64,000 bases of DNA from Cohaesibacter sp. ES.047. GTDB taxonomy: Bacteria > Pseudomonadota > Alphaproteobacteria > Rhizobiales > Cohaesibacteraceae. Below, one piece after another: positions 6,161 to 29,541 of this stretch. The stretch covers positions 2,452,501-2,516,500 of the forward strand of contig NZ_LT907844.1 of NCBI RefSeq assembly GCF_900215505.1. Direction: 5' to 3'. The translations under genes were made by a program, and so were the position numbers. Below the pieces are notes generated by a model. The model made no database searches. It saw only the letters and a program-made list of their open reading frames with translations, and had not been told where the DNA came from. Numbering within the stretch: position 1 is the first letter of the stretch; each line of letters begins with the position of its first letter.

Positions 6161-6760
6161 CTAATGGCGCAACAGGTGGGCGCCGATCCGCTGCATGTGT
6201 TTCTCCAGCGGCCGGATTTCCAGCGTGCCGTCTGCATCGGGCTTGATCTTTGTGCCGCCGATATTGTCCTCGTTAAACTGTGCAATGCTGCCTTTCGAAG
6301 GGGAATTGCCAAGTCCAAAGTTATGACAGTCAACGCGGCCTTCAAGGGCGTTCAGTGCGACATTCCGCTCAAGAATTGAGAAGGTCTCGGGCACTGGTTC
6401 AAAACAGTAGATGTGCTTTGCATGGGTGTGTCTGCCCCAATAGACAGCATGGTTGCCAATATTGGCGCCGATATCAAGGATGATAGCATCCTCTTGAATG
6501 CGGCTTTTCAAGCTCTCGAGTATCTCGAATTCGACATAGTTTCTGAGCTTGAGCAAATGTTTCTGGATGATATCCTGCTGATGATTGGGAACATGAAACT
6601 GCGCCCCGTCCCGCAAGGTGATCACCGCATCAGCTGTCATCGGCGGGATGACGAGATGTTCGAGCAACTCGATGCGCGCGCACAGCTCGCGATAGCTCTT
6701 GGTTCTTTTGAACAGACTGTTCGTGGTTTTGGCTGCGAGCTTTGCAAAGGGATTTTTCAT
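6161..6760 (-). pseudogene. FkbM-family methyltransferase, 3'-truncated and fused in frame to the M48 remnant
   Basis: 199 codons from ATG 6760. The SAM-binding motif ILDIGANIGNHAVYWG (about residues 93-108) and CFEPVPETFSILERN are typical of FkbM methyltransferases, but the family's C-terminal KIDVEG block is absent: after LEIRPLEK the sequence turns into what resembles the start of an M48 domain (MQRIGAHLLRH) and stops at TAG. The M48 frame resumes immediately after that stop in the same frame. The upstream reading to 7507 is a shadow of yghU on the other strand. Best read as a deletion joining two genes followed by a nonsense change. Confidence 0.7.
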
Positions 6761-7021
6761 CGTCTTCAGCCTTTTGGGCCCTGTAGGGGACGATTGTCGG
6801 GCGTATGAAAAGGTGTAGCGTACCGTAAAATATATCATGGGGAAAGTTGCCTGGTGGCTTTGACCAAAATCCCATTGGACTGGATCTCTTAAAGGCTGCA
6901 TCACCGCCACTTTGTAATAGCGGGTCTTGATGGGGACTTTTGTGTCCGGGCATGAGTGCCTATATTGAACAGCAATCGATCGTCGTTTTGACGCTTCTCC
7001 GATAATGAAAGGTTTAGAGCA

Positions 7022-7885: not shown

Positions 7886-7988
7886 ATCTGGATCGGGCCG
7901 CAAGTCGTCTGAAATGGAAAAAGCGTCGGCAGCCTCCGCTCCGGCGCTTTTTCTTTGGCTGCCTGTTGCCGCACGTCTCCCCAAACGT

Positions 7989-8684
7989 TCAGAGCGAAAA
8001 CAGGGAAGGCGGCTCTTCGGCCGGTTCGATGAGTTTTTCTCCGCTTGCCCGGCTGTTGCCAACCGCTCGGTCGACCTGGTAGGAGATCAGTTCGTGATCG
8101 CGATGTTCGTTGAGGACAGCGCGGGCATCATCGACGCCGTTCGAGCGATCAAGCCAGGTATCATAGACCTCGGGCTTGAGGATCACCGGCATGCGGTGGT
8201 GGATATGCTTGATTTCCTTGACGGCGGGTGCGGTCAGAATGGTGCAGCTGAAAAGGCCAAGGGTTTCGTTGAAGGCACTGAGCCCCGCAAAGGCAAACGC
8301 CTCGAAGTCCGGCAGGTGCAGCAGATGCGGATCTTTCTTGCCGTCTTTCGGGCTTTTCGTCCATTCATAATAGCCGTCCGCCGGGATGAGGCAGCGGCCA
8401 TATTTGAATGCTTCGCGAAAGGCGGGTTTCTTGTGCGCTTCCTCCGAACGGGCGTTGAACATAGGATACTCGTTCTGCAGATCCTTGGCCCAGTGTGGCA
8501 CGAGCCACCAGCGCCCCGACAGAAGACGGCGCTCGCCATTCACATCGGCGACATAGAGAATCTCCTGCGTCGGTGCGATGTTGTAACGCGGTGGCACGTT
8601 TCTGTGCGTGTCCTCGGGATGGATCAGATTGTACATCTGATGGATGGCCGCCCAAGAGCCCTTCAGGATAAAGCGTCCACACAT
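7989..8684 (-). CDS. SOS response-associated peptidase family protein (YedK/HMCES)
   Basis: 231 aa. It starts MCGRF, so Cys2 becomes the N-terminal nucleophile after Met removal; RYNIAPTQ, WWLVPHWAKD, FNARSEE, CLIPADGYYEW and HHRMPVIL supply the conserved Asn, Glu and His of the family. Members crosslink covalently to abasic sites in single-stranded DNA and shield them from error-prone repair. The gene stands alone, converging on yghU and divergent from the thioesterase gene. No LexA box was recognised in the ~200 bases before it. Confidence 0.93.
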   Translation of the reverse strand: MCGRFILKGSWAAIHQMYNLIHPEDTHRNVPPRYNIAPTQEILYVADVNGERRLLSGRWWLVPHWAKDLQNEYPMFNARSEEAHKKPAFREAFKYGRCLIPADGYYEWTKSPKDGKKDPHLLHLPDFEAFAFAGLSAFNETLGLFSCTILTAPAVKEIKHIHHRMPVILKPEVYDTWLDRSNGVDDARAVLNEHRDHELISYQVDRAVGNSRASGEKLIEPAEEPPSLFSL

Positions 8685-8884
8685 CTTGGTCTCCTTTGTG
8701 CATCTGCATGCGCGTCACGATGAAGCACATCATGCAACGGCACCTAGCCGGGTTCAACCTTGCCATTGACAAAGGGATACAGTAGAAGATGACTGCCGTT
8801 ATCGTAAAGGGAAGGTGAGGAGCCTCATCTGCCCACATCCCTTCTGCTTATATCTGTCTTGGCCGAGAAAGGGCCCCGTCCATC

Positions 8885-11195: not shown

Positions 11196-14066
11196 TCAGT
11201 TGGTGCTGCCGAAGTAGGTCGTTGCCTTATCGTCATCGTCCTGCTTGCGAGGAGGCGGAGGGGTTAGCACCCCTTCATAGCGCTTCTCGCGCAGCCATTT
11301 GGTGACGAGATCGAAGCTCAGCGGGCGCGAGACGAGGTAACCCTGTACGGAACAATTGGCGATCTGGGATACGGTGCTCAGCTGCTGATGCGTCTCGATG
11401 CCTTCGCACACGACCCGCAACTGCATCAACTTGGACATGGACATCACGACCTCAACGATCGCCTGTTGCTTCTCGCAGCTTGAAATGTTGCTCACGAACG
11501 ACCGGTCGATCTTGATGCCGTCGACGGGCAAGTTCGATAGATGCGAAAGGGACGCATATCCGGTTCCGAAGTCATCCAGCTCGATATGAACGCCTCTTGC
11601 CGCCATGGCGCTGACAAGTTCCATGATGTTGGGGTGCTTGTTATCCATCAATGTGCTTTCGAGCAGTTCAACGGCCAGAAGGTCAGGGTTCACACCGTGC
11701 CGCTCGACGCTCTCGAAGAAGTCGTCAATGAGAATATTCTTCTTGAGGTGGGACGGAGACAGATTGATCGACAGGCGACCGAAATCGAGCCCTTCATCAA
11801 TCCATTTTCGCGCAGCAATCATCGCCTTTTCAAAGATCGTGCGACCAAGCGCCGATGCCATGCCATGTTGCTCGACCACGTCCATGAAGAGACCGGGGGG
11901 CAATTGGCCCTTTTCGGGATGGTTCCAGCGCAGCAGAGCTTCGATCCCGGTGACGCGTTCGTCTATCGTACTGATTTGTGGTTGGAAATAGAGCTCGAAC
12001 TGGTCCTGCTCAAGGGCGGTTCGCACGTCGGTTTCGATTTCGATGTCGCTGTCGACCTTCTCCTTCATCTCGGCTGCGAAGAACTGATAGCCGTCGCGTC
12101 CCATTTCCTTGGTTTTGTAAAGGGCCAGATCGGCGTAGATCATCAGGGATTCAAGATCAGAAGCATCGTCAGGATACACCGCGACACCGAGGCTCGCTGT
12201 TGGCCAAAGAGTGAGCGTGTCAGACTGAACCGGAATGGCCACCAGATCTGTGAGTTCCTGACACAGATCTTCAAGATCGGTCGTGCAGTCAACCTCGACC
12301 GTTGCCACGAATTCATCTCCGCCCCAGCGATAGGGATGGAATGTATGCACCTTTTCCGCAAGGAACATCAGGCGCGTCCCGATTTCCTTGAGAAGATGAT
12401 CGCCGACAGCATGGCCCATCGTGTCATTGACACGTTTGAACCGGTCAAGGTCGATTTGAACGATGGCAAAACGGCGCGGTGTCGTCGCTGACTTGAATTT
12501 CTTTTCCAGATCCTGCTGACAGCGTGCGCGGTTCGGAAGGGTGGTAAGCGCATCATAATAGGCGATATGCTGCAGAGCGTCTCGTGTTCGGCGCAATTCC
12601 GCCTCTCGTGCCCGGGCTGTCGTGACATCGGCATAGGTGGACAGGATATCGCCATTTGAGAGCTTGCGATCGGTGACAACGAGCTGAGTTCCGTCGTACA
12701 GCGCTATTTCGTGCTCGATTTCACCGTTTTCTTCGAGAGATTCGTTGCGCTTGTCGATCAGGGCCTGCGTTTCCCAACCCTCGGCGCGCCAGACCTGTTT
12801 CTCCACACAAAGGGTCAGCAACTCGCGCAACAGCAGACCGGGCTTGATGTGCTCGGCGATGGGGCCATTGAAATGCCTGAACGCATCATTGGCCATTACC
12901 AGTCTGTCCTTGCAATCCCAGATGACAAAGCCGTTCTTCATCGAATTGATTGAATTGAGCAGATGCGAATTAGTCTTGATCTGCTCGCGCTGGGCAGCAG
13001 AAAGATCGCGGGAAGCCTGTTCTGCTTCCTCGCGCTTGAACTTCAGATCCTCGATCATCTGGCTGCGTTCGGTCACATCGATGTGGGAGCTGACAAAACC
13101 GCCACCTTCAATCGGCCACCCTTTGATCTCGAGAACCTTGCCATTTGACATTTTCTTCTCCAGCACATGTGGCTGAAGCAAGAAGTCCTGATCGAAAGCC
13201 TTGTCAACGAGGTCTTCAACCGTATCTGCGCCAAGCTCATCAAGATCTCCCCGCTCGGCCATCAAACGGAGCAGATCCGTCATGTGACTGCCAACAGGAA
13301 ATTCCTTTTCCGATATGCTGTTAAGGTCATAGAAAGACGGATTGGCGATCTGCAGCCGGAAATCCGCGTCATAGGCACTGATGGAACCTGGAAAGTTTTC
13401 AAAGGTCGCCGACAGGAGACTGTTGTACTCCTTGAGAGCGTTCTCCTGCAGCTTGAGCTCGGTGATGTCGGTGCGGATGGAAATGATTTCTTCGAGCTTT
13501 CCGTCCTTGTCGTAGATCGGCATCACAGTTGTTGCAACCCAATAGATGCTGCCGTCCTTGGCGCGGTTTCGGATTTCTCCCGACCAACTCACGCCAAGCA
13601 CGATCTTCTGATACATGTCCTTGAACAGGCTCTTGTCATGGTAACCCGAGTTCAAGATGCGGTGGTTCTGGCCGACCAACTCGTCCCGGGAGTATTTGGA
13701 AATTTCACAAAACTTGTCGTTGGCATAGGTGATGGTGCCGCGGGCGTCGGTGATCGAAACGATGGCGTGGGAGTCGATGCCTGTCTTGTGAGAGGTATGT
13801 TTGCGCTCGAGCTTTTCTGCTTTGGTTTGCAGATGGCTCAGCTCTTGGGCGAGCCGCTTGACATGCTTGATCGAAAAATAGAGTCCGATCGACAGAAGCG
13901 TCGTCGCTGTTATGAAGATCTGGTTTGAAAAGGACAGGGCGTTTCTTGCGGTCTGGGTGCCTTCCCCAAACGAGAAATAAAGGAGCACGGCATCTCCGGC
14001 AAGTATGACAATCAGCAGGCAAAAGGCTATCAAATAGTCACGTTTGTTGCCAGTTCCTTCATGCAT
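11196..14066 (-). CDS. Membrane-bound PAS-GGDEF-EAL cyclic-di-GMP enzyme
   Basis: 956 aa. Two N-terminal membrane helices (about residues 10-30 and 48-66) are followed by a short coiled coil, an Aer-type PAS domain (~98-205, with HRILNSGYHDKSLF), a second PAS-7-like block (~215-335), a third (~370-490), then GGDEF (~500-660; RWGGDEF intact, no upstream RxxD inhibitory site) and EAL (~680-925). The EAL domain keeps EALLRW, NLSP, the ELLES glutamate, ELDDFGTGY, KIDRSFV and CEGIET, so both diguanylate cyclase and phosphodiesterase activity are possible. The tail is charged (PPPPRKQDDDDK). It probably senses redox or small molecules through PAS. Confidence 0.93.
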   Translation of the reverse strand: MHEGTGNKRDYLIAFCLLIVILAGDAVLLYFSFGEGTQTARNALSFSNQIFITATTLLSIGLYFSIKHVKRLAQELSHLQTKAEKLERKHTSHKTGIDSHAIVSITDARGTITYANDKFCEISKYSRDELVGQNHRILNSGYHDKSLFKDMYQKIVLGVSWSGEIRNRAKDGSIYWVATTVMPIYDKDGKLEEIISIRTDITELKLQENALKEYNSLLSATFENFPGSISAYDADFRLQIANPSFYDLNSISEKEFPVGSHMTDLLRLMAERGDLDELGADTVEDLVDKAFDQDFLLQPHVLEKKMSNGKVLEIKGWPIEGGGFVSSHIDVTERSQMIEDLKFKREEAEQASRDLSAAQREQIKTNSHLLNSINSMKNGFVIWDCKDRLVMANDAFRHFNGPIAEHIKPGLLLRELLTLCVEKQVWRAEGWETQALIDKRNESLEENGEIEHEIALYDGTQLVVTDRKLSNGDILSTYADVTTARAREAELRRTRDALQHIAYYDALTTLPNRARCQQDLEKKFKSATTPRRFAIVQIDLDRFKRVNDTMGHAVGDHLLKEIGTRLMFLAEKVHTFHPYRWGGDEFVATVEVDCTTDLEDLCQELTDLVAIPVQSDTLTLWPTASLGVAVYPDDASDLESLMIYADLALYKTKEMGRDGYQFFAAEMKEKVDSDIEIETDVRTALEQDQFELYFQPQISTIDERVTGIEALLRWNHPEKGQLPPGLFMDVVEQHGMASALGRTIFEKAMIAARKWIDEGLDFGRLSINLSPSHLKKNILIDDFFESVERHGVNPDLLAVELLESTLMDNKHPNIMELVSAMAARGVHIELDDFGTGYASLSHLSNLPVDGIKIDRSFVSNISSCEKQQAIVEVVMSMSKLMQLRVVCEGIETHQQLSTVSQIANCSVQGYLVSRPLSFDLVTKWLREKRYEGVLTPPPPRKQDDDDKATTYFGSTN

Positions 14067-14312
14067 CCCGATATCCTCGAACTCTGTCCAAACAGTCCCC
14101 GGATGAAATGGCCATCACTCATTTGGCAGCCCTAAAAGTCATCGTCCGAGTATTCCGCTGCTTTCGATCCGTGTCACAACGAAGGTTCAGTGAGCATCAC
14201 AGAAAAATATTGAAATATATATAAACGCCCCGTGGAAATTGGCAGGAGGGCAGGTCGCGCCCCTCAACAAGCGCCAAGGGGCGCTTTACCGAGCGGCATC
14301 GCGGCTCATGAA

Positions 14313-14350
14313 TGAAAAAATCCCGCACTTCTGTTGGGAAATGCGGGATT
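14313..14350 (-). terminator. Intrinsic terminator of the chemoreceptor gene
   Basis: On the minus strand, AATCCCGCA pairs with TGCGGGATT over a 14-base loop and is followed by TTTTTT. It lies ~70 bases past the chemoreceptor stop. The rest of the 14067-14420 gap has another GC hairpin around 14259-14290 and an AT-rich stretch near 14205-14222, presumably the promoter of the GGDEF-EAL gene; no coding frame is convincing. Confidence 0.8.
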
Positions 14351-14420
14351 GAAGAGCTTGTCTGTCTGGGAAACATCTTGAAACAATTGCCCAAAAGGCG
14401 TTTCAGGATCGTTTCAGGGG

Positions 14421-16160
14421 TCAGGCTGCTGTCGCTTCCTGAGTATCCGTGCGATGCTCCCGAACACCTGAGAGGAAGTCAACGATCTGCTGCTCCAGAG
14501 AATCCATCTGTTCACAAAGCTCGCGCATGTTGTCAGACATGATGACGGACGATTTGCCATTCTCGCCGGCCAGACCATTGAGGGCTTCCGCATTGTGCGA
14601 AACGTCACGGCTCCCCGCAGCTGCAAGTGTGATAGAGCTGGAAATCTCGCCGGTTGCCGTTCCCTGTTCCTCAACCGCAGCAGCAATCGTGCTCGATATA
14701 GCCGTCATGCTGTCGATGGTTTTCTTGACCAGCCCGATCGCGTCGACTGCACCGGAAATGTTGTTCTGGATGGAGACGATCTGGCCTGAGATTTCCTCGG
14801 TGGCGTTGCCGGTCTGCGAAGCAAGATCCTTGACCTCTGCGGCAACGACGGCAAAGCCTCTGCCGGCTTCACCTGCTCTTGCCGCTTCGATGGTCGCGTT
14901 GAGCGCCAGAAGATTGGTCTGTTCCGCGATATCCTGAATGAGACCGACGATCCTGCCGATGGCATCGGATGCCTGCGAAAGTGTGGAGATCACATGAGAT
15001 GCTTTGTTCACCTCATCCACCGCAGTTTCGGCGACACCACGTGACTCTTCTACCTGAACGGCAATCTCTGAAATCGAGGCTGTCATTTCCTCGGTCGCGC
15101 TTGCAACGGTTTCCACGTTGGTGCTCGATTCTTCCATGGCCGAAGAAATCGTTGTCACACGATCGGTGTTTTCCTTGGCGCGATCAGCGAGAAGGCTCAT
15201 TTCCTGCTCAAGCATCTCAGCCCCTTGCTTGACCTGCGTAAAGATCGAGCCGACCTGCCGGTCGAATGTATCCGCCATCTCAAGCAACATCTTTCGCTGC
15301 TGTTCTTCTGCCAGCGCCTTCTGTTCAGCCTGTTGTGCTTCAAGGGTCAGTCGTTCATTCGCGTTGTCGCGGAAAACCAGCAAGGCCTTGCTCATATTCC
15401 CGATTTCATCGCGCCGCTTCTGATGCGGAATGGAAATGTCGAGTTGGCCTTCCGCCAGTTGCAGCATCGAATGAACAATTTGGCCAATCGGACGGGTAAT
15501 GCTGATCGCAAGAAAGACCGAGACGGAGCTGAGCACTGCCAAGATGATCAGGCTGCTGATGAGCAGACTTTTCAGATTTGACCAGTAGATCGCATCGAGA
15601 TCATCGATGTAAGAGCCGGTTCCGACAACCCAGCCCCAGTCCTTGTGATAGTCGACATACGCCATCTTTGGAACCGGCTGGCTGTTGCCCGGGCGTGGCC
15701 AGGAGTAGCGAACGACGCCGCCACCATCGTGGGCAACGTTGACGAACTCCCGCATGAAATAAAGACCGTTGGGATCCTGCTTGTCCGACATGTCAACCCC
15801 TTTAAGTTCGGGATCGGTCCCATGCATGACGAAGACCGCGTTGTCGTCATTGATCCAGAAATAGTCGCCGTCATTGTAACGCAGAATCGACAGGGCTTCT
15901 TGTGCGCGAGTCTGTGCTTCCTCCACACTCATCTGACCCGCCTTTGCCTGACGATCGAACGACTCAATCGTGGCCATAGCGGTTTCGATCAGATGTTTGA
16001 GTTCCAGACTTTTCGAGCGCTCGAGATCCTCTCTGCTGAAAAAACTGCTTTGCACAGTGAGAACACCGATCCCCAAAATGGACACAAGAACGATGAAATA
16101 GATTTTCGCTGACAGACCATGAAGCCATGCCGGAAAAATTGAACGTTTTTTGGATGTCAT
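14421..16160 (-). CDS. Methyl-accepting chemotaxis protein with a single Cache domain
   Basis: 579 aa from ATG 16160, which follows AGAGG at a good distance; an ATG at 16223 is less likely. TM1 lies at ~17-38, then a periplasmic sCache_2 domain (~45-190: [38 protein letters not shown]), TM2 (~200-220), HAMP (~222-275) and the coiled signalling domain with the hairpin tip [19 protein letters not shown]. Cache domains of this type commonly bind small organic acids. No C-terminal CheR/CheB pentapeptide is present. No che genes lie nearby. Confidence 0.93.
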
Positions 16161-16764
16161 TAGAATTGCCTCTTGAGCCTTAGTACGGGCTGTGGCCAGC
16201 ATAGCGTATGGAGAAACAACCATGGATTGTTTTTATTAGTATTCTATAACAATCTTAATGAATGCTAAAACATTAGCATCTTCTAAGAAGGGAATCTTCA
16301 ATGTATGTAAATATACTTATAGTAGATTATTGGGTATGCAATACTTGCATAATGTGGTCGTGTATTGAGTGTAAGAAGGTTTTTTTGGATCTTTCCAGCA
16401 AGAATACAATGAAAATAAAATGCGTTATATTCGAAATTTGGAGATTTATATGATCATAAAATTTATAAAAAATGATAGTATATTGAACTGATGATTTATC
16501 AATATTTATTGATCTATTTTAATTCGAAGAACGAATTTATAACGACTTTTCATCTATGCACCAATAAAGTGCGTATCGATGTCATGTCTAGCCAAGCATG
16601 TTGGGAGATGATAATAACAACAATTCAATTCATCCACCGGTGCCGTATTCTCGTTTCCCCGGTTCATCCGATTTAGACATTTCAGTCCCGATCATTAACG
16701 CAAACAGCTGCTCGCGTTGTCAGCGTGCAATGGTTTTGGGCTCTACTTTTTTGGAGCACTTCAA
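16161..16764. other. AT-rich intergenic region
   Basis: About 600 bases without a convincing gene. From ~16220 to ~16600 the base composition is strikingly AT-rich compared with the surrounding GC-rich genes. It should contain the divergent promoters of the chemoreceptor and the Bcr/CflA gene; a frame at 16491-16676 is not supported by any motif or ribosome site. Confidence 0.6.
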
Positions 16765-18190: not shown

Positions 18191-18235
18191 ATAACACGGA
18201 ACGCCATGACACGGAACGCCATGACACGGAACGCA
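18191..18235 (+). repeat. Three tandem copies of a 15-base unit spanning the start codon
   Basis: Units ataacacggaacgcc, atgacacggaacgcc and atgacacggaacgca follow each other directly. Being 15 bases, the unit stays in frame and supplies two consecutive ATG codons, so the N-terminus reads MTRNAMTRN. Confidence 0.9.
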
Positions 18236-19309
18236 AGCACATCCTCAGACCAGCGACGGTTGAACAGCATATCTCTCGACCGTCATCTCCTCGACGAGTT
18301 GGCGCTGAAGGGCGTGATTTCGCCGGACCTACGTCAAGCATCCCTCGATTGGCTGCATCCGTCTCGGGCGTGGGCCCAGTGGGCGATGGTGTTGATGCTG
18401 GCTTTCGGCACCGGGCTTATCCTTGCTGGCATTGTGTTCTTCTTCGCATTCAACTGGGCCTCCATTCCCGATCTGGCAAAGCTGGGAATGATCGAGGCCG
18501 GTTTGATCGCTGCGGCCCTTGGCGCCTGGTTCATAACGCTCAAACGGCTGAGCGGACAATTGCTGCTGCTTGTGGCCTCAACGCTCGTTGGCGTGTTTCT
18601 GGCAACGTTCGGGCAGATCTATCAAAGTGGCGCGGACCCATGGCAATTGTTCGCGCTTTGGGCTCTGCTGATCACGCCATGGACACTCCTGTCCCGCTTT
18701 TCCGCTCTCTGGCTTATATGGTGGGCGCTGATCAACATCGCTCTGATGTTGTGGTGGGACGAAGCATTGGGCAGCAATTCCGCCCTTGATGCCTACCTTT
18801 CCTTTACGTTCAGCCTGTTGAACGGCAGCGCACTTGTCCTGAGAGAGGGGATCGTGCGCTTAAGCGCGAAACGGGGAGGGGAAACGAACCAATGGCTCGG
18901 TCCGGTCTGGACCCGCTGGCTTCTGGTCGCAGCGACCCTTGGATGTCTCTTCCCGTTGCTGATCGAGTTTGTCTCCGCCGTGGCATCGGGGGAGGGTGTC
19001 TCCGGCTTGGTTGGCCCTGTCGGCTGCGTGCTCCTTGCCGGGGCCTATCTCTATTTCCGCTATGTGGATCTCGATATTCCGGTGCTTGCCATGGCACTAC
19101 TCGTTGCCTGTTTGCTGTTCCTGGTCGGCCTCGCTGTCTTTCTTGACAACCACGAGGCTGATGCGCTGATTACCACGCTTCTGACAGGCATCGCTGCCAT
19201 TGGGTCCTTTGGCGCGGCCGCCGGATATCTGCGCAAACTTCTGCAGCTTGTATCTGAAGTGGAACCCACTGAAATCGAAGCAATGAACGGGGAGCAGCAC
19301 GGTGACTGA
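18206..19309 (+). CDS. DUF2157 domain-containing integral membrane protein
   Basis: 367 aa, starting at ATG 18206 or 18221 inside the tandem repeat. A short cytoplasmic N-terminal part (residues ~20-50, LDELALKGVISPDLRQASLDWL) precedes about ten membrane helices, the DUF2157 layout. The first gene of a three-gene overlapping operon with a DUF4401 protein and a GDYxxLxY protein, a combination found together in many proteobacteria. Function is not established; the set may form one membrane complex. Confidence 0.85.
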   Translation: MTRNAMTRNASTSSDQRRLNSISLDRHLLDELALKGVISPDLRQASLDWLHPSRAWAQWAMVLMLAFGTGLILAGIVFFFAFNWASIPDLAKLGMIEAGLIAAALGAWFITLKRLSGQLLLLVASTLVGVFLATFGQIYQSGADPWQLFALWALLITPWTLLSRFSALWLIWWALINIALMLWWDEALGSNSALDAYLSFTFSLLNGSALVLREGIVRLSAKRGGETNQWLGPVWTRWLLVAATLGCLFPLLIEFVSAVASGEGVSGLVGPVGCVLLAGAYLYFRYVDLDIPVLAMALLVACLLFLVGLAVFLDNHEADALITTLLTGIAAIGSFGAAAGYLRKLLQLVSEVEPTEIEAMNGEQHGD

Positions 19310-20582
19310 TACCCCGATCAAAAAGGAGCCCACAGCAACGAAGAAACACGCCCCGCTCATCGAGGAGGGCTACCGCTGGATGCTCGAGGCACCGAAGGTT
19401 CCTCAGTGGCTGGACCATGTGCGCAAGGACTTCTCGTTGACGGCGGAGGACGCGGCCGCGATAAAGACCGAAATTCTTGCCATTGAAGATCGCGCTCATG
19501 CAGAGGCGCCGCTCTATCTCAGAGCGCTCAGCGGCATTGGTGCGATTGTCTCGGGACTTCTGTTCCTTTATCTACTTTATCTGTTTGGTCTGTTCAAACT
19601 CAATGACGCCAGTCTGATCGGCAATGGCCTGCTTTTGATGCTGGTTGCGATGGGGCTATACCGGTCCGGCATCAAGAAACTCGGACTGGCGCAGGATTTT
19701 ATGGTCCAGACCGCGCTCACTCTGCTGCAAGCGGGCAAGGTGGCACTGATCTCCGGTCTCGTTCAGATGACCGATACCCTGTTCAATCTGTCATGGACCT
19801 GGCCGGTGGCGGCCATTCTGGGGCTTGTGGCGATCCTGTCCTTTCTGCTTTTCCCTTCGTCGCTCGAGCGCTTCGTGGCGGGGATCACCTTTCTGATGTC
19901 CTTTTGGATCTGTCTGCTGATTGACGGGCCGGAGGGAGGGCGCGCCTTTGCCTTCACCGCTCTGGTCGCAGCGCATCTTCTCGCATTAGCTGCGTTTCTA
20001 GCCTATCCGTGGGTCCGCAAAGCGCTCACCAGCCTGTTTGACGCGCTGATCGTCTCGCTTTGTGCCGGTGTTGGCATCGTGTCGACCTTCGTCAAGATGC
20101 ACGGCCTGAAGCAGGTCGATCTTGATGTTGTCGATCTGTCGATCGATATGAGCGGGTTCGCACAGAAATGGCCCATTCAGATCCTGCTCACGCTTGCTTT
20201 GTTCGCCCTGATCCGCTGGATCGCCGGGCGACAAACGGCCTGGCGGTCCGAACCGATCCTGATCGCCTTTGCCGGGGTTGTTCTTCTGGGCCTTGTTGCC
20301 GATCCTGCAATCCTTCTGGCTCTGGCTCTGATGATCGCTGGCTATGCCACGCACCGGCCCGTTCATTCGCTGCTGGGGCTTTTGTTAGCGCTCGGCTTTG
20401 GTTGCTACTATTATTATGCTCTGGATATTACGCTTTTGCAGAAGTCTGTTGTTCTCATCCTGTCGGGCATTGTCTTCCTGTTCGGTGCGGCCATCGTTTA
20501 CGCGAAGGGCTGGCATCTGTCGGCGGTGAAGAACCCCACGGTGACAGGGCCCCTGTCCAATGGAGATGCAGACCATGCCTAG
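19302..20582 (+). CDS. DUF4401 domain-containing integral membrane protein
   Basis: 426 aa. GTG start at 19302 with GGGAGCAGCAC upstream; it overlaps the DUF2157 stop by eight bases. A soluble head of ~70 residues (WMLEAPKVPQWLDHVRKDF) leads into roughly ten hydrophobic helices with a YYYY cluster late in the protein. The architecture parallels its upstream neighbour, so the two may be distant relatives that heteromerise. Function unknown. Confidence 0.82.
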   Translation: MTDTPIKKEPTATKKHAPLIEEGYRWMLEAPKVPQWLDHVRKDFSLTAEDAAAIKTEILAIEDRAHAEAPLYLRALSGIGAIVSGLLFLYLLYLFGLFKLNDASLIGNGLLLMLVAMGLYRSGIKKLGLAQDFMVQTALTLLQAGKVALISGLVQMTDTLFNLSWTWPVAAILGLVAILSFLLFPSSLERFVAGITFLMSFWICLLIDGPEGGRAFAFTALVAAHLLALAAFLAYPWVRKALTSLFDALIVSLCAGVGIVSTFVKMHGLKQVDLDVVDLSIDMSGFAQKWPIQILLTLALFALIRWIAGRQTAWRSEPILIAFAGVVLLGLVADPAILLALALMIAGYATHRPVHSLLGLLLALGFGCYYYYALDITLLQKSVVLILSGIVFLFGAAIVYAKGWHLSAVKNPTVTGPLSNGDADHA

Positions 20583-21111
20583 TCGGCTTATCCTCATCGC
20601 GCTGCTGCCGATCCTCGTCGTTTTCAACTATGCCATTTTCAGCAAGGAAACCCTCAGGAACAATGGTGAGTTGATCTTCTTGGAGCTCGCGCCCGTTGAT
20701 CCGCGCTCGTTGATGCAAGGGGATTACATGCGCCTGAACTACAAGATCGCACAAGAAGCGGGAAGCCGGCTGAACGCGCTGAGAGATGAGGGCGGCGGTG
20801 CAGCAGAGGCTGCCGAAGACGCCTCTCAACTGGTGCTGCGCATCGATGGCAACAAGGTGGCACATTTCAACCGTTTTCACCGCTCGGACGTGGCGCTCGA
20901 AAGCAATGAGCGTCTGTTTGCCTTTCGCGTCGATCCCGGAAACTCTGTGCGACCTGTGGCTTTGCATCCCGACAGTTTTTTCTTTCAGGAAGGCCACGCA
21001 AGCGCCTTTGAGCGGGCGCAGTATGGGCGCATGCGGATCAACGAGAGCGGCGACCATATCCTTGTTGGCTTAGCTGATTCCCAGAGGGTCGAAATCCGCC
21101 CTCAGCCATGA
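20575..21111 (+). CDS. GDYXXLXY domain-containing protein
   Basis: 178 aa from ATG 20575, which overlaps the preceding stop and has GGAG nine bases upstream. One N-terminal membrane anchor (residues ~4-22) is followed by a periplasmic domain containing the defining motif GDYMRLNY at about residues 49-56 and a β-rich remainder (FQEGHASAFERAQYGRMRI). The domain is named for that motif and occurs as the third member of DUF2157/DUF4401 operons. Biochemical role unknown. Confidence 0.88.
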   Translation: MPSRLILIALLPILVVFNYAIFSKETLRNNGELIFLELAPVDPRSLMQGDYMRLNYKIAQEAGSRLNALRDEGGGAAEAAEDASQLVLRIDGNKVAHFNRFHRSDVALESNERLFAFRVDPGNSVRPVALHPDSFFFQEGHASAFERAQYGRMRINESGDHILVGLADSQRVEIRPQP

Positions 21112-21347: not shown

Positions 21348-23519
21348 ATGCTCGAACTGGCTCAATTCCTCATGTCGATGACAGGCTTCGGTTTGCCTTT
21401 GGGCATACTGTTGCTGATGTCCGGCCGAGTGAAAGCTCGCAACGAGTTGGACACGATCACGCGCGTCGTCGCCGGTTTCTGCATTGGGCTTGTATGTTAT
21501 TGGCTGATCGGTTACTCGCTTATCAGTGGCAGGAGCGTCGCGGGCCTCTTCGGCCTTGGCTTTGGATTGTTTGGGCAGATCGATGTTGATTTCAACATGA
21601 ACGATTTGCCTCTTCTTCTGCTCTATACGATCCCTTGCATCCTCGCCACGGCTTCGCTGTCCGAACGTGGCAACTTCATCGGAAGCAATGCTCTGGTCGG
21701 GGTTGCCGCACTTTTTATTGTCCCACTCGTGACCCACTGGGTGCGATCGAATGGGACCGGTCACGCCGGCTGGATCTCTGGCTTGGGATTCAACGATCAG
21801 ACTGGCGCCGAGGCCATCTTCGTCTCTGCCGGGGCTGTTGGGTTGGCCGCCAGCGCCGCCATTGGTCCTCGCAGAGGGCGCTTCCCGCTCCATTCCGGAC
21901 GCCCCCGCGGCCATAGCCCCACGATGCATGCGCTTGGCGTGATTGTCATGATCTTTGGCACAGCCGGTCTGAGCATCGCTCAGGTTTCTAATCTCGACGC
22001 CATGCCTGACGTTCTGTTCAAGGTTCTCTTGGGGGCGAGCTTCGCCGTGGTGTCCGCCATGATCTTGCTGATGTCCCAGCGCGAAAAGGGAGCGGCGATG
22101 GATGTCATGGCTGCCGCACTCGCTGGTGCCATCGCGCTGGTTGCCTTTGCGCCGTACGTCACCGCAGCAAATGCAGCCCTGATTGGCTTGTTTGCAGGAA
22201 CGGTCTGTATCGGTCTGCGGCGCATTCTGATGGTCATCGAGGTTGACGATCCGGGAGATCTGATTGCAACGTTCCTCGCTGGCGGCCTCATAGGTGGCCT
22301 TCTCTCGCCAGTGCTCCAGATGAGCCGGAGTGCAAACCTGACTGAGCTTATGATTGCCCAACTAATTGGCATATTTGCGATTTCAGCCTGGTCATTTGGC
22401 ATAACCTATGCCGCAGCTCGGGTTCTCGATTTCTACGGCAGACTGAGGGTTAGTGAATTTGACGAAGCGCGCGGCCTCTCACGGGCGCAATTCGGCATTC
22501 AGAGTGAAATGGACTTTTTTCTGTCCCAAATGGGCCGCCGCGGCAGTGTGTCGATGCAGGAGGCTGAAAGCGATAGTGAACAAAGCTCGCAGTTGGCACA
22601 GATCTTCGGTCAGGCGGTGGTGCGAACGCGCAATGAAGCCCATCGGGCAGTTGATCGCATTCAGAGCGCGACCGGTAACAGCAAAGAAAATGCCGCGATG
22701 ACGTCCCGGATCCGGTTTGCCGAGGATACCCTGAAAGTGAAAGCAGAAGATATCATGCTGTTGCTGGACGGGACCCTCAACAGCGAGAGTACTGCGATCA
22801 ACGGCGTTGAATTCCGCGTCTGGCTTGAGGAAGCCATGGAGATATTGCTTCAACCAGCTCTTCAGGATCTTGAGCAGTTCTGCCGCCATATGCCCTTGCA
22901 GGCCGAATTCAACGAAATCGAAAATCTGGTCGTCGCGGCAACGAGCTCGGTCACACGCACCGCTCACCAGCTCGAGTTGCTTCATGATTTCTCGGATGCG
23001 CAAATCAAGGGGTTCTATTCCCGCGATCACAGCTGCGACCTTGCCAGTTTGCTCAAGGAACAATCCTCGTTTCTCAAAACCCTAGCTGAAGTGCGCAACA
23101 GCCCGATCCAGATCGATTGCACAGACGACTCAGGCCTGATGGTCAATGGCGATGCCAATGCCTTCTCGCGCATCATCTCACTTGCGGTCGAGGGGGCTTT
23201 GGCACGGCTTCTGGGAGAAGAGGGACAGCCGGTTCGCGTCGAATTGCGCAAGCACAGTTCAGGTCAGCATATCGTGTTCGAGTGTCTGGACACGGGCACG
23301 GCTCTGTCGGCACGCCAAATCCGGACGATCACCAACCCCTTGCACATCGAGTCGCAATTAAGCGAGATCGGTTTGCGGCAAATCCTGCCGTTGATGCTGG
23401 TGGGCCAACTTGTTGAAGCGATCGGCGGGGAAATGACCCTGTCGAGTGAACAAGGTCTTGGAACCCTGATGCATTGCCGGTTTCGGATGGCGTCAACGCA
23501 GCGCACCAAAACGGATTGA
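21348..23519 (+). CDS. Amt-like membrane sensor fused to a degenerate histidine-kinase ATPase domain
   Basis: 723 aa. Residues ~1-362 have the ammonium-transporter (Amt/Mep/Rh) fold, eleven or so helices, with family landmarks such as the conserved Asp (D150) of the fifth helix, GAVGLAASAAIGPRRG, and ALAGAIALVAF followed by DDPGDL. The two pore histidines of AmtB (H168, H318) align to Phe158 and Phe309. The soluble part carries coiled-coil-like helices (~380-550) and a HATPase-like fold (~595-715) with N-box Asn replaced (AVEGALAR), G1 box DTGTAL and no clear phospho-accepting His. It is likely a non-transporting ammonium or gas sensor with an allosteric, not catalytic, output. Start ATG follows a run of AAGAGAATCCC. 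Confidence 0.8.
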   Translation: MLELAQFLMSMTGFGLPLGILLLMSGRVKARNELDTITRVVAGFCIGLVCYWLIGYSLISGRSVAGLFGLGFGLFGQIDVDFNMNDLPLLLLYTIPCILATASLSERGNFIGSNALVGVAALFIVPLVTHWVRSNGTGHAGWISGLGFNDQTGAEAIFVSAGAVGLAASAAIGPRRGRFPLHSGRPRGHSPTMHALGVIVMIFGTAGLSIAQVSNLDAMPDVLFKVLLGASFAVVSAMILLMSQREKGAAMDVMAAALAGAIALVAFAPYVTAANAALIGLFAGTVCIGLRRILMVIEVDDPGDLIATFLAGGLIGGLLSPVLQMSRSANLTELMIAQLIGIFAISAWSFGITYAAARVLDFYGRLRVSEFDEARGLSRAQFGIQSEMDFFLSQMGRRGSVSMQEAESDSEQSSQLAQIFGQAVVRTRNEAHRAVDRIQSATGNSKENAAMTSRIRFAEDTLKVKAEDIMLLLDGTLNSESTAINGVEFRVWLEEAMEILLQPALQDLEQFCRHMPLQAEFNEIENLVVAATSSVTRTAHQLELLHDFSDAQIKGFYSRDHSCDLASLLKEQSSFLKTLAEVRNSPIQIDCTDDSGLMVNGDANAFSRIISLAVEGALARLLGEEGQPVRVELRKHSSGQHIVFECLDTGTALSARQIRTITNPLHIESQLSEIGLRQILPLMLVGQLVEAIGGEMTLSSEQGLGTLMHCRFRMASTQRTKTD

Positions 23520-23543: not shown

Positions 23544-25346
23544 CTAGTGAAGCGTTCCCTTGGAAACTGGTGTCCATTCAGGATTGATCTGGCTGAGCGT
23601 CTGTTCAAGAAGGCTGCCTACAGAGCTTGATGCATCAAGTTCGATCCAGCGGGTCCAGTCCCGGCTGAGCTCGGTTCTGCGGAGAATCGGCAACACTGCC
23701 TCTGAGGTGCCAAGCTCGACACGGTCACACCCTGATGATGCGCTCTGCAATTCCAACTCTTCAAGCGCTCCTGCCTTTGGGGCAAGTTCTGCACCATGCC
23801 GATGGTCTCGCGAGGTATCGAACAGATGAAAGGCCTGAAGCAACACCGAGGTTGGGATCTTGTGATCAAGCTCGGTCAATATCTCTCGGCTTTCCGGGCT
23901 GTCGAACCGTCCTTCCAGGACCACTGAATATCCGGTCTCAAGGGCAATCAGTGCCTTCTCGGCCATTCTGCGATAAACCAACCGCCAAACCGACTTGCGA
24001 TGGGCCGATTGGGGCAGCATGGACGGTGACGCCACCGCATGCAGAGACAGGATCTCCTGATCTGCCGATAGATAGACCGCGCCCGGCAGGCGCCCGATGA
24101 CCGGAGCAAGCAACCGTGCAAGGTTGGATCGGTTTGCATGGGTGCTGCCGCCAATGACCACCAGTGCTGCTTCATCCTGCAAGAGACTCTCGCGCGCCGT
24201 CGTCACATATCCCTTGAGCGCACGGGGTTTCATGCCGCCGTCGGTTTCATGCAATGGTCGGGTGGTCAAGGCGGCACTCAGCCGTTTCGCCCTGTCCGTG
24301 GCGCGCATGAAGATATAAAGATCCAGCACCTTCAATCCGTTGAGCGCATCGCTGTCGACCTGATTGTTGCAATAGTGCGAAAAAACCCAATTCGCCTGAC
24401 GATGCAAACCACGCGACCACAATTCGGCGATCAGAGAAGCGAGGTCATAGAAGGGGTCACCATGCCACTTGCGCACCTGATTGGCTTTTGAGCTGACCAG
24501 TGGATGGATAAGCCGCAGGCCCTTGGATGTCTCCACCACGTTGCTCAGGCCCAGATTGCCATGAATGGGATGGAACTGGCCGTGCTGGCAGCGTTCCTGC
24601 AACCCTTGTGAGGCGCGCTCAAGCAATTCCGAGGCCCGATTGAGACAGGCTCTGAGAGTGGTGTTTTTTGCATCTCTATCAAGTGCGCGAACCAGCGGCG
24701 AGAAGCTGCCGATCATCTCCTCCAGATGCCGCAGCCAGCTGCGGGCGGATCGGCGCTTCTGCCGTCTGGTCTGGCTGGGCGCGATCAGATCGGCCAGCCG
24801 ATTGCATTCGTCGAAATTGGGCTGATAGATTTCCACCCGCTTGTCATAGCACTTGGAGAAATCATACCGCTGCATCATGATCAGCCAGTCGACGATTGGA
24901 GCCTCTGATGCCATGCGTGCGACATCGGTCGATCTCTCTTCGCTTGCCGTCAGAGGCAGGTCCAGAAACAGCTGATTATGGAGACATCGCACCGGTACAA
25001 GCCCGAGATAAAGCTCCGGGGCAAAGGCACTTCCCAGCCGCATTTCCTCTTTAGCCAGTTGATGGCGCTGTTCAAGTGTGAAGGCTTCGCTTTGTCCCAG
25101 AGGTACGTCGCGCTGCAGTTTGTAGCAATGGCCGCCGGCCATGAACAGCACCGAAGACATCATGTCGATCCGATCGACCGGATCGGTCTCGCCATAACTG
25201 CGCGGCTCAGTCAGAAAGGCAACGACAGCGCGCTGTTCATCGCTCACAGACAGCGGCAGACCGCTGTGCGTTGCTGTAAGCGCGTGATCCTGGTCCAGAG
25301 AATCGAACGGCTCTTTGGCCGGGATTTGGTAACTGAGGGATTCCAT
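23544..25346 (-). CDS. APH/P-loop kinase two-domain protein (COG2187+COG0645 layout) with degenerate active sites
   Basis: 600 aa from ATG 25346 (GGAAGCGG upstream; an ATG at 25433 is possible). Residues ~60-360 resemble aminoglycoside phosphotransferases and ~390-560 a P-loop kinase, the order of a known bifunctional family. The APH catalytic loop, normally HGDxHxxN, reads HGNLGLSN (262-269): the base Asp is Asn and the His is Gly; the metal Asp downstream is His (LIHPLV). The Walker A site, normally GGLSGxGKS, reads GGSTHANRS (399-407), with Lys replaced by Arg. Both halves therefore look non-catalytic. It converges on the Amt-fusion gene 24 bases away; whether they work together is unknown. 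Confidence 0.7.
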   Translation of the reverse strand: MESLSYQIPAKEPFDSLDQDHALTATHSGLPLSVSDEQRAVVAFLTEPRSYGETDPVDRIDMMSSVLFMAGGHCYKLQRDVPLGQSEAFTLEQRHQLAKEEMRLGSAFAPELYLGLVPVRCLHNQLFLDLPLTASEERSTDVARMASEAPIVDWLIMMQRYDFSKCYDKRVEIYQPNFDECNRLADLIAPSQTRRQKRRSARSWLRHLEEMIGSFSPLVRALDRDAKNTTLRACLNRASELLERASQGLQERCQHGQFHPIHGNLGLSNVVETSKGLRLIHPLVSSKANQVRKWHGDPFYDLASLIAELWSRGLHRQANWVFSHYCNNQVDSDALNGLKVLDLYIFMRATDRAKRLSAALTTRPLHETDGGMKPRALKGYVTTARESLLQDEAALVVIGGSTHANRSNLARLLAPVIGRLPGAVYLSADQEILSLHAVASPSMLPQSAHRKSVWRLVYRRMAEKALIALETGYSVVLEGRFDSPESREILTELDHKIPTSVLLQAFHLFDTSRDHRHGAELAPKAGALEELELQSASSGCDRVELGTSEAVLPILRRTELSRDWTRWIELDASSSVGSLLEQTLSQINPEWTPVSKGTLH

Positions 25347-25803
25347 CTGTCCGCTTCCGAAGAATGCAGTGGTGAAACTTTGCACCACGCCCGAGCTGAA
25401 GGCAGTTAACACGAACTGACTGCGGCCAATCATGCGCTAACAATGCCGACAGGAAGCGTCTTTTGCATTGAGGGATGTCAAGATACGTAACCTCCCATAC
25501 AGCTTCTTTAAACGATTCAATGTGGGCGAATTTTATACGCAAAAACAATACGCTAGGGCTATTTGACTGCGAGCTTGGATTAAAGTTGTATTCTTGACGT
25601 GAAGCAATCGAAGGTAATTGGGGCTATTCTTCGGGAGCATCGTGCGAATAAGGAAACTTGCGAGTCGCGATCCAGCCGGGGGTGCGGTGCATCAGATCGG
25701 GCGTAACGTGTATTGGGGTCAAGCGGTTGCTGGCTTTCTGGACGCAACTGGCAGGCCTGATTGCAGGTCGAACACCCAGACAAGGAAAGCGCAGGGAGGA
25801 AAC
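25347..25803. other. Intergenic region between divergent genes
   Basis: About 450 bases. The stretch ~25440-25600 is comparatively AT-rich and presumably holds both promoters. A frame open from 25618 merely extends the next gene upstream and has no family-like sequence before the internal ATG with the strong ribosome site. Confidence 0.5.
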
Positions 25804-26485: not shown

Positions 26486-29200
26486 CTAGATCAGATCCGC
26501 AATCTTGCGGCCGATCTCAGGCACCTTGAACACCATATGCACCAGATCAGGGTCATCCGGGTCCGTCCGGGTTTCAAAGCCGAGGGCTTCACACATCTGG
26601 CGCATGGTCTTGTTGGAGCGCAGGACCTCTCCGGCCACTTCGCGAAAACCGTCCTTTTCGGCAAATTGCAGGATGAGCTTCATCATGATCCAGCCAAGAC
26701 CCAATCCCTTGAGATCCGAACGCACCATCACGGCATACTCACCCGTTTCATGATTGCCATCCCCCATCAAGCGGACCGAGGCCAGCATTTCACCGCTCAT
26801 GGGGTCCACCGCGATGAAGGCCATGGAACGGGCATAATCGATTTGCGTTAACCGGGAGATGAAGGCGTGGGTCATGGTGCGCGCCGCCGAGAAGAAACGC
26901 AGCCGCATGTCTTCATCCGTGACATGATCGAAAAAGCCCGGAAACAGCGCCTCGTCTTCGGGTTTCATGGGTCTGATGAAGACCGTGCGGCCATTCTTGA
27001 GCTCGCGCACCTGTTCCCAGTCGTGCGGGTAGGGTTTGACGGCAAACCGATTGTGCGGATGGATGCCCTCGGGCACCTTGATCACTTCAACACGGGCATC
27101 GGCAATGACAAAGCCACCGGCATCGGCCAACAGGGGATTGAAATCGAGTTCAGCGATTTCGGGGAAGTCCGCGACCATCCGGCTCATCTTAACGAGGATT
27201 TGCGCAAGGGCCGCGCGATCACAAGCAGGCGTGTCCCTATAGCCTTCGAGGCGGCGGTTGACGCGTGTCTTCTCGATCATGCGGAGCGCCGAGAGGGGAT
27301 CGAGCGGAGGCAGTGCCATGGCCTTGTCCCGGATCACCTCGACCGCAGTACCGCCGCGCCCGAAGACCATCACCGGCCCGAAAATCGGATCTACGTTCAT
27401 GCCGGCGAACAGTTCGATGGAATGGGGCTTCCTGACCATGGGGTGAACCGTCACGCCGTCAATCACGGCCTCGGGGTTGGCCTCCCGTGCCCGGGTCATG
27501 ACCTGTTGTGCCGCCGTGGCAACGGCTCCGGTGTTGCCAAGGTGAAGCACGACGCCGCCGATGTCGGATTTATAGAGAATATCGGGACTGTCAATCTTGA
27601 CCACGGCGGAGCCATAACGAGCGATGAGGGGGGCTGCCTTCTGGGCCGCTTCAACCGCCGTTGGAGCGGCATAGGAGGGGGCGATGGGAATGTCATACGC
27701 TTCGAGAAGCTTGGTCACGGCCACTGCATTCAACCGGTGTTGACTATCATGCAGAGCGTCATCGATCACCGTCCGTGCCGCTTCGTAATCGGGCTGAAAA
27801 TCGCCGATGGCAGGTGGCATGCGCATCAACTGATCCTGCGCCTCCATGTAGCGCACCACGTAGGAAAATCCCCTGAGGGCATCAGCGGGCGTTGGATAGT
27901 GTGGGATACCAGCAGCCTCGAACATCCGATTGACGGTTTCGCCTCCGCCCAGCCATGCCGCAAACACCGGAATGCGCCGTTTGCCCGCCTTCTTGCGTTC
28001 CTCGATCACGTCGATGATGGCCTTGGCTGCCTCTTCGCCGGTGGCAAGCGCGGTCGGGCAGGTCATGACTAGGATCGCGTGGCTGTTGCGGTCTTCCATG
28101 AGGATATCAAGCGCATCCTTGTAGCGCTGCGGGCCAGAATCCACCACGATGTTGACCGGGTTGCTGCGAGACCAGCTGGCTGGCAGAATGGCGTCGAGTT
28201 TGTCAATCGTGCTGTCTTCAAGCGTGGCCAATGAGCCGCCGTGATCAATCAGATCATCCACGGCAAGAACACCGATGCCGGCGCTGTTGGTCATCACCGT
28301 AAGCTTGGAGCCATTGAGCTTGCGCACATGCGTGAGGGTCTCGACGGCGGCAAAGAACTCGTCGAGGTCATGCACCCGCAGCAGCCCCGTGCGCTCGAAC
28401 GCGGCATCATAGGCCGCGTCGGCACCGACCAGTTTGTTGTTGCGCGAGGCAAAGGCCGATGCGCCCTCTGCGTGGCGTCCCGACTTGATCAGGACCACCG
28501 GCTTTGTGCGGGCGGCCGCACGGGCTGACGACATGAATTTGCGTGCGTTGATGATGGTCTCCACATAAAGCAGGATCGCCCGTGTGTGCGGGTCCATGGC
28601 AAAGTGGTCCATCATGTCGGCAAAATCGACATCAGCCTTGTCGCCAAGGGAAATGAGGCCAGAAAATCCGATGTTGTTGTGGCTGGCCCAATCCGCAACC
28701 GAGGCCGTGATCGCTCCCGATTGGGAAATCAGCGCAAGATCGCCTGAAAGTGCCGAGACATGGCAATAGGACGCATTGAGACCATGGCGCGGGGACTGGA
28801 TACCCATGCAGTTGGGACCGATCAGTCGCACCTTGTGATCTGCCGCCGCATCCATGGTTTCGCGTTTCTGTTTGTCGTCAAGCCCGCCCATCTCCGTGGT
28901 GATCACCACGGCGCCCCGGCAGCCTTTCTCGCCCAAGGCCTTGATGGCGGGCGCAACTTTGTCCGGCGCAAGGGCAACAATGGCCAGATCGGGCTTGATC
29001 TCCAACGCATCAACAGACGTGAGCACCGCCAAACCCTCGATCTCCCCCCCGTCCGGGTGGATCAGATACACCTTGTCGCGATATTTGCCGCTGAGAAGAT
29101 TGCGCGTAACCGCCTGTCCGATGGTTCCCTCCGCTGCCGAGGCACCGACGACGATGACGTTGCGGGGCCTGAAAAAGACGTCGAGATGGTAGCTGCTCAT
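26486..29200 (-). CDS. Pat-type bifunctional acyl-CoA-synthetase-like/GNAT acetyltransferase
   Basis: 904 aa from ATG 29200 (GAGGGG upstream); the longer frame to 29362 has no family sequence. Order: CoA-binding Rossmann domain (FFRPRNVIVVGAS, ~8-130), succinyl-CoA-ligase-like domains (~150-460), ATP-grasp (~490-710) and a C-terminal GNAT domain (~735-895, with LKGLGLGWIMMKLIL as the acetyl-CoA loop). This is the layout of Pat/PatZ protein lysine acetyltransferases, which silence acetyl-CoA synthetase. Where active NDP-forming synthetases have SHTG with the phospho-histidine, this protein has SRNN, so the synthetase half is probably regulatory only. Confidence 0.88.
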   Translation of the reverse strand: MSSYHLDVFFRPRNVIVVGASAAEGTIGQAVTRNLLSGKYRDKVYLIHPDGGEIEGLAVLTSVDALEIKPDLAIVALAPDKVAPAIKALGEKGCRGAVVITTEMGGLDDKQKRETMDAAADHKVRLIGPNCMGIQSPRHGLNASYCHVSALSGDLALISQSGAITASVADWASHNNIGFSGLISLGDKADVDFADMMDHFAMDPHTRAILLYVETIINARKFMSSARAAARTKPVVLIKSGRHAEGASAFASRNNKLVGADAAYDAAFERTGLLRVHDLDEFFAAVETLTHVRKLNGSKLTVMTNSAGIGVLAVDDLIDHGGSLATLEDSTIDKLDAILPASWSRSNPVNIVVDSGPQRYKDALDILMEDRNSHAILVMTCPTALATGEEAAKAIIDVIEERKKAGKRRIPVFAAWLGGGETVNRMFEAAGIPHYPTPADALRGFSYVVRYMEAQDQLMRMPPAIGDFQPDYEAARTVIDDALHDSQHRLNAVAVTKLLEAYDIPIAPSYAAPTAVEAAQKAAPLIARYGSAVVKIDSPDILYKSDIGGVVLHLGNTGAVATAAQQVMTRAREANPEAVIDGVTVHPMVRKPHSIELFAGMNVDPIFGPVMVFGRGGTAVEVIRDKAMALPPLDPLSALRMIEKTRVNRRLEGYRDTPACDRAALAQILVKMSRMVADFPEIAELDFNPLLADAGGFVIADARVEVIKVPEGIHPHNRFAVKPYPHDWEQVRELKNGRTVFIRPMKPEDEALFPGFFDHVTDEDMRLRFFSAARTMTHAFISRLTQIDYARSMAFIAVDPMSGEMLASVRLMGDGNHETGEYAVMVRSDLKGLGLGWIMMKLILQFAEKDGFREVAGEVLRSNKTMRQMCEALGFETRTDPDDPDLVHMVFKVPEIGRKIADLI

Positions 29201-29541
29201 GATCCCCTCATTCGCTGTAAGTCCATGTAAGCCCACGGAAGCCCATGAAACGGCACCCCGCGAGGAGGCACTCCTGTCCCTAACCGGCCCATGACAGCTT
29301 GTCCTTGATGTATCCAGTGTTGCCAGCGCTTTGCTTTGAAATTCACAAGCAATCTGGATCATACTTTAGTTAAAGACAGTCCTGTCCAAGATCGGGGCGA
29401 TTAATAAGGTGTTAAGCAAAGGAAAAGGCAAATAAAAACAGATGCAATCTATTAAAGTTCTGCTGTTAGTCTTTCGCCTAGCGCGATCGTGAACGGGTAT
29501 TGAGTGGGCGCGCGACAGGGGTAAGGCACTTGGAACGGGAA
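29201..29541. other. Intergenic region with imperfect direct repeats
   Basis: About 340 bases between divergent genes. At 29218-29248 three imperfect copies of aagYccaYg occur (aagtccatg, aagcccacg, aagcccatg). The section 29340-29470 is AT-rich and probably carries the promoters. Confidence 0.45.

Follow-up and report, generated by a model that had tools for sequence, protein, structure and literature searches.

A Cohaesibacter ammonium-transporter fold without its twin pore histidines, joined to a histidine-kinase-like core without its catalytic motifs

Among solved ammonium transporters (Amts), Sd-Amt1 of Shewanella denitrificans (PDB 8qj3, 8qj4, 8qpf) is the best match, by both sequence and fold, to a protein encoded at 21348..23519 (+) of the 64,000-nt stretch of Cohaesibacter sp. 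ES.047 DNA analysed here (the window; all coordinates refer to it). The PDB titles describe Sd-Amt1 as a receptor with ON and OFF states, and we take it to be a diguanylate cyclase fusion. Its sequence match extends to residue 399, or profile position 427, with both pore histidines of Sd-Amt1 present in the alignment, while its C-terminal output part is unlike that of the window protein. Closer in architecture is Ks-Amt5 of Kuenenia stuttgartiensis (6eu6), in which, as in the window protein, an Amt is directly fused to a histidine-kinase (HK) type module without a HAMP domain; according to the part of PMC5764959 available to us, Ks-Amt5 is an ammonium sensor histidine kinase in which ammonium is not efficiently translocated. 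Ks-Amt5 nevertheless keeps the twin histidines, the Phe gate, the selectivity filter, the ammonium sites and an active kinase, all of which the window protein appears, by sequence, to have lost.

On the kinase side, DivL of Caulobacter (4q20) and RetS (6dk7, 6dk8) lead the profile matches to solved HK cores and rank near the top by fold. DivL, which binds DivK~P, acts neither as a kinase nor as a phosphatase (PMC4211667, partial text), and its profile similarity to the window protein spans residues 526-717, most of it in the CA domain and the second of the DHp helices. RetS downregulates GacS by heterodimerising (PMC12189002, partial text), but is also described as dephosphorylating GacS, and so is not simply dead. 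No Amt domain is reported on either protein in the portions of the literature consulted for both. As for the pore, PMC7447429 describes the change of the first-site His to Glu in fungal Mep proteins as the only natural variation of the twin histidines, and a literature search thin on subscription papers and preprints found no report of a family in which an Amt without twin histidines is joined to a pseudokinase. Amt sensors and pseudokinases are known separately. The Cohaesibacter family is a natural test of the Amt fold without its transport residues, and together with its relatives, which run from an intact pore through an eroded gate with both histidines kept to the loss of both, it forms a graded series that bears on how a transporter turns into a signalling protein. 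In this family, moreover, an apparent pseudo-histidine-kinase is attached to a type of membrane domain known as a trimer from other Amts, whereas HKs mostly function as dimers; Ks-Amt5 is the precedent for HK modules on a trimer (PMC5764959, partial text).

The gene starts with ATG and encodes 723 aa, an Amt-fold domain fused to an apparent DHp-CA pseudo-histidine-kinase. The Amt-fold membrane domain comprises residues 1-366 (21348..22445, +) and is followed by a cytoplasmic connector with helices in the AlphaFold model (residues 367-485; 22446..22802, +); no HAMP domain is found among the Pfam matches of the protein up to E=10. That the N-terminus has an Amt fold, as proposed for residues 1-362 in an earlier note on this DNA, is borne out to about residue 380 by a match to Ammonium_transp (PF00909; residues 17-383, E=3.4e-38, 131.8 bits against a cut-off of 23.2) and by predicted-structure matches to Amts. 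The full-length AlphaFold model, made from seven sequences, is of moderate quality (mean pLDDT 72.7, pTM 0.50); its closest PDB folds by Foldseek are Sd-Amt1, Ks-Amt5 and AmtB, with target TM from 0.78 (AmtB, 1u77) to 0.80 (Sd-Amt1 8qj4, E=6.1e-12). The protein scores 152 bits against the 343-bit cut-off of NCBIfam TIGR00836 and, in a Pfam search of 80 genomes of the phylum, 134 bits, against at least 280 for each of the other full-length matches listed. The host genome has two further Amts, both with canonical pore residues: a 457-codon open frame and a 1105-aa Amt-PAS-GGDEF-EAL protein, encoded at 5529-8846 (+) of another stretch of that genome (L088), which is probably an intact second Amt-type sensor.

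We placed the pore residues by aligning the protein in MAFFT with AmtB of E. coli and further Amts, including the two canonical ones of the host genome; HMMER alignments to two solved Amts, 8qj3 and 6eu6, gave the same register. Phe158 (21819..21821, +) falls on AmtB H168 and Phe309 (22272..22274, +) on H318, exactly as the earlier note had placed them, and the assignment of D150 also holds. Independently of any alignment, the window protein has no histidine in residues 140-181 or 195-431, so no plausible register shift would give a pore histidine at either position. The losses extend well beyond the twin histidines, with Leu92 (21621..21623, +) at the Phe-gate position F107, Arg133 (21744..21746, +) at the S1-site W148, and Thr205, Leu208 and Gln212 (21960..21983, +) at W212, F215 (gate) and S219 (S1 site). 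Read across AmtB positions 107, 148, 160, 168, 212, 215, 219, 310 and 318, the window protein has LRDFTLQDF, compared with FWDHWFSDH in 49/49 comparison Amts, a non-random sample made up of the 30 best-match loci from the search of 80 phylum genomes and 19 of the 20 stretches chosen by hand (L129, which lacks an Amt, was excluded from the census). The loss in the window protein is no chance event, given that all 49 have both histidines and that Phe at the first site is fixed in the orthologues described next.

Counting the window protein, we compared 18 orthologues from the Cohaesibacteraceae. Neither histidine is present in any of them, the gate Phe at position 107 is kept in none, and the same is true of each of W212, F215 and S219, while Trp is found at position 148 in 12 proteins, the window protein not among them. 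The aspartates fare better, with Asp in 17/18 at the D160 site and in 18/18 at the D310 site. Phe occupies the first histidine site in all 18 and the second in 14, the exceptions being L010 (Thr), L016 (Ser), L018 (Ala) and L021 (Ala). The Phe pair, for which the earlier note had suggested looking in homologues, is thus carried by 14 of the 18 proteins, and the replacement of both histidines by one and the same residue, which it noted in the window protein, holds in these 14 and not in the other four. On these counts the two phenylalanines are unequally conserved: the first is fixed and the second is not required. A sequencing or alignment artefact was considered and ruled out, since the orthologues come from separate genomes, the MAFFT modes and HMMER agree, and the window protein has no histidine near either site.

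Mutants of AmtB give some idea of what these changes would mean. The H168A/H318A protein still binds NH4+ yet fails to transport it, and S219A/H168A/H318A shows no current (both in the available part of PMC7447429). Judged by its residues, the window protein has lost more than the triple mutant; because the losses go beyond those of transport-dead AmtB mutants, we conclude that it probably does not transport, and the proposal that the pore no longer does so is supported as a likely consequence of losing both histidines.

The C-terminal part consists of a DHp-like two-helix segment (residues 486-556; 22803..23015, +) and a CA-like, that is HATPase_c-like, domain (residues 557-716; 23016..23495, +). 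AlphaFold predicts a confident DHp-CA fold for the isolated module (pLDDT 84.9, pTM 0.81), and Pfam matches HATPase_c at residues 601-714 with 24.9 bits, just below the cut-off of 26.4. We aligned the module with four kinases, including an Amt-HK fusion from genome G424 (L128; SHELRTPL, NLLSN, DTGIG, GTGLG). This fusion has full pore residues together with its canonical SHELRTPL kinase, and would make a good active control for the family. In three MAFFT modes, none of the 32 family members has His at the H-box column; the window residue there is Ile499 by alignment, or Glu498 if Pro is taken as the anchor, and within six columns of it a His occurs solely in L082, where it is shifted one position upstream. 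Among the 17 Cohaesibacter proteins, Leu or Met takes the place of the first N-box Asn and Gly or Ala that of the second, while the last Gly of DTGxG is changed to Ala, Ser or Thr and the inner G2 glycines to Ile/Val and Pro. Judged by its motifs, the attached module would not work as a histidine kinase. On the other side, all 32 members retain the D and G of the DTG box, so that the CA-like domain may bind nucleotide weakly.

Comparisons with solved kinases place the module near DivL, though not near DivL only. As profile matches, with the full alignment, DivL comes first (E=1.1e-16), followed by RetS (2.3e-11) and 7z8n (2.7e-11), and with the C-terminal alignment DivL and RetS tie at 3.7e-8 each. 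By fold, DivL (E=7.6e-10) is followed by HK853 (1.1e-9) and RetS (1.8e-9), and the near equality of an active kinase, HK853, with DivL counts against a DivL-like pseudokinase reading. The best kinase-type match in NCBIfam is RcsD (1.4e-9), far below its cut-off. The idea that the Amt domain is joined to a signalling module thus holds as far as a fusion to a signalling-type module goes, but the catalytic motifs of that module (the H-box His, the N-box and the inner G2 glycines) are missing. A sensor role is conceivable, but contrary to the earlier note the fusion by itself does not imply one, since neither the known input sites (see below) nor the catalytic output motifs survive.

The reading that we favour, and consider somewhat better than an even bet, is of a membrane receptor or scaffold that combines a transport-dead Amt with a catalytically dead histidine-kinase core and acts by protein contact. 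Both activities, ammonium transport and kinase, would have been lost. The Amt part would be trimeric in the membrane, like other Amts, with hydrophobic and aromatic side chains closing its pore, and would either anchor the module or change shape on a signal that is probably not ammonium. The trimer would hold, and perhaps conformationally control, up to three pseudokinase modules. The CA and DHp surfaces would bind a partner, either a response regulator or an active kinase, in place of phosphotransfer, on the pattern of DivL with DivK~P and CckA or of RetS with GacS. From the missing motifs we conclude that the output is probably not phosphotransfer.

Measured in six pairs, dN/dS in the Amt half of the protein was 0.05-0.15, and in the C-terminal half 0.03-0.10, the values being rough in the two of 12 comparisons where dS was 5.3 and 2.8, and these ratios indicate that the gene is under strong purifying selection. 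Decay into a pseudogene is ruled out by the same values (0.03-0.15 in all) and by intact frames in 16/17 other genomes of the genus. Within the Amt domain, conservation in the 17 Cohaesibacter proteins is the same at pore-lining sites as elsewhere (0.53 vs 0.53, P=0.53), while in 13 canonical Amts it is 0.79 at pore-lining sites vs 0.43 elsewhere, a difference reached in 0/10,000 random draws. The 20 pore-lining positions used here are our own choice, based on AmtB structures. Pore sites no more conserved than the rest imply that the special constraint on the pore is gone. Unlike the other pore sites, F158 and L305 (Leu at the position of AmtB V314) are invariant in the 17 proteins.

The lack of excess conservation at pore sites would also suit an Amt domain with no sensing role, which would serve purely as a trimeric membrane anchor for the pseudokinase. 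Human RhD and RhCE, members of the Amt superfamily that are not known to transport and have a structural role, would be a precedent of this kind, but the portions of the literature consulted neither confirmed it nor gave their pore residues. At the same time, the low dN/dS across the whole Amt domain and the invariance of F158 and L305 are more than an inert anchor seems to need, and we regard a pure scaffold as rather unlikely.

What the favoured receptor or scaffold might use for contact is suggested by its CA-like domain, which of the four parts of the protein has the highest identity to the window (56-82%) in 16/16 comparisons within the genus. Its conservation when the ATP-site motifs are gone hints at a conserved binding surface, though folding alone could be the cause. 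In comparisons with the more distant L021 and L022 the CA-like domain is not the most conserved part; we count this against the favoured reading, along with the dispensable second Phe and the remnant of the periplasmic ammonium site described next.

Could the protein sense ammonium as Ks-Amt5 does, binding it without passage and signalling to the kinase-like module, with the phenylalanines merely closing the pore? The architecture of Amt plus HK is shared with Ks-Amt5, the closest solved relatives, Sd-Amt1 and Ks-Amt5, are both Amt receptors, and AmtB lacking both histidines still associates with NH4+ (PMC7447429, partial text). Moreover, with D160 in 17/18 and W148 in 12/18 Cohaesibacteraceae proteins, part of the ancestral periplasmic site remains. 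However, Ks-Amt5 itself has W144/S227, the Phe gate and both histidines (in the available text), while gate and S219 are lost in 18/18 Cohaesibacteraceae proteins, and in AmtB it is the addition of S219A to the histidine losses that abolishes the ammonium current (PMC7447429, partial text). The intramembrane ammonium ligands of Ks-Amt5 are given as Q24, E31, N47, D50, T51, T109 and T112 (PMC5764959, partial text). The first six of these correspond to P17, M24, V40, G43, F44 and I98 in the window protein, so that T112, which is T101 in the window protein, is the sole ligand kept of seven and neither acidic one survives; the Q24 position is Pro in 18/18 Cohaesibacteraceae, and the two acidic positions have an acidic residue in 0/18. 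Ammonium sensing at the known sites is probably beyond the window protein, judging from these replacements, and an ammonium sensor of the Ks-Amt5 type seems to us distinctly unlikely. The earlier suggestion that the pore may still bind ammonium or methylammonium accordingly finds little support, with F107, F215 and S219 kept in 0/18 proteins and six of the seven ligands replaced.

A Phe-lined path could instead pass or bind a neutral compound, CO2 or a hydrophobic metabolite for instance, which would fit the fixation of F158 in 18/18 proteins and the mostly hydrophobic lining; since an altered channel or small-molecule pore sits poorly with lining sites that are no less variable than other positions of the domain, we think it very improbable. 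Hardly credible is the idea that the kinase is active and phosphorylates an unusual residue, such as His514, which is conserved in the genus. The intact D and G of the DTG box and the near invariance of His514 among the 18 proteins might speak for it, but L021 and the aligned members from other families lack this His, which lies 15 positions past the H-box column, and both N-box asparagines and two inner G2 glycines are lost in 17/17 members of the genus.

The distribution of the gene bears on how the two sets of losses arose. A full-length copy is present in 16/17 other Cohaesibacter genomes (17/18 with the window's own), and a diverged copy in another genus of the Cohaesibacteraceae. Among 397 genomes of the order, at least 33 have C-terminal profile matches at E<1e-70, the next match being at 7.8e-34; these comprise 18 Cohaesibacteraceae, 12 from one genus of another family, and G223, G112 and G361. 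In a class sample of 385 genomes the window's own genome was the sole one to pass with the C-terminal profile among the candidates scored, and both the order and the class counts are lower bounds, at most five candidates having been scored per genome. No relatives of the family were found in viral contigs. In G361 the Amt and kinase-like halves lie in different frames of the assembly (L097), with a canonical pore; we left this locus out of the C-terminal counts and the tree and kept it in the pore-site table.

The proteins from other families (the 12-member group L022, L083-L085, L087 and L090-L096, together with L082 and L086) have the architecture of the window protein, no His at the H-box column and C-terminal matches at E<1e-70, but, unlike the window protein, they keep both pore histidines. 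In the 12-member group F107 and S219 are lost in 12/12 and the DTGxG glycine is kept in 12/12, while L086 keeps the whole pore signature. In the tree the Cohaesibacteraceae form one clade (support 100/99); L082 has a very long branch and is possibly drawn to that clade, and L086 sits on a weak fork (72/39). A gene of the CoA-ligase/GNAT cluster (c1) lies about 4 kb from the L086 gene, and L082 starts, by eye, with the apparent end of a CoA-ligase/GNAT gene; as such a gene is also near the window gene (see below), this favours orthology. Read most simply, the residue table suggests that the kinase would have lost its His first, with the gate and S1 site following and the pore histidines going last, in the Cohaesibacteraceae, an order taken from the table itself and not reconstructed on the tree, in which the placement of L082 and L086 is unsure. 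Combining this order with the favoured receptor gives a more specific model, which we hold only tentatively: a trimeric Amt receptor, both transporter and kinase having become pseudo-proteins in the order kinase His, gate/S1 site, pore histidines, that would pass a non-ammonium signal by contact to a separate two-component system.

Synteny was followed in the window and nine other Cohaesibacter regions (of the 16 other genomes with the gene). Two downstream genes are present in 10/10 regions: one convergent with the Amt gene, which encodes 629 aa (23544-25433, -) and has a weak Zeta_toxin-type match at residues 420-517, below the Pfam cut-off, and one for an ADP-forming CoA-ligase-type protein with a GNAT domain (26486-29362, -). 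Upstream is a tight trio of DUF2157, DUF4401 and GDYXXLXY genes (18206-21111, +); DUF2157 and DUF4401 are found in 9/10 regions, and their absence from L041 indicates that they are not tied to the Amt gene. No response regulator or histidine kinase domain was matched by Pfam in the 11 neighbouring open reading frames between 11196 and 30876, so the genome context names no partner, a further point against the favoured reading, and an operon partner was rejected, as no regulator adjoins the window gene. Signals in a promoter and terminator scan did not clearly outnumber those in shuffled sequence. Genes for a PAS-GGDEF-EAL protein and a Cache-type chemoreceptor (11196-16223, -) are also located upstream of the Amt gene, at a distance of a few kb.
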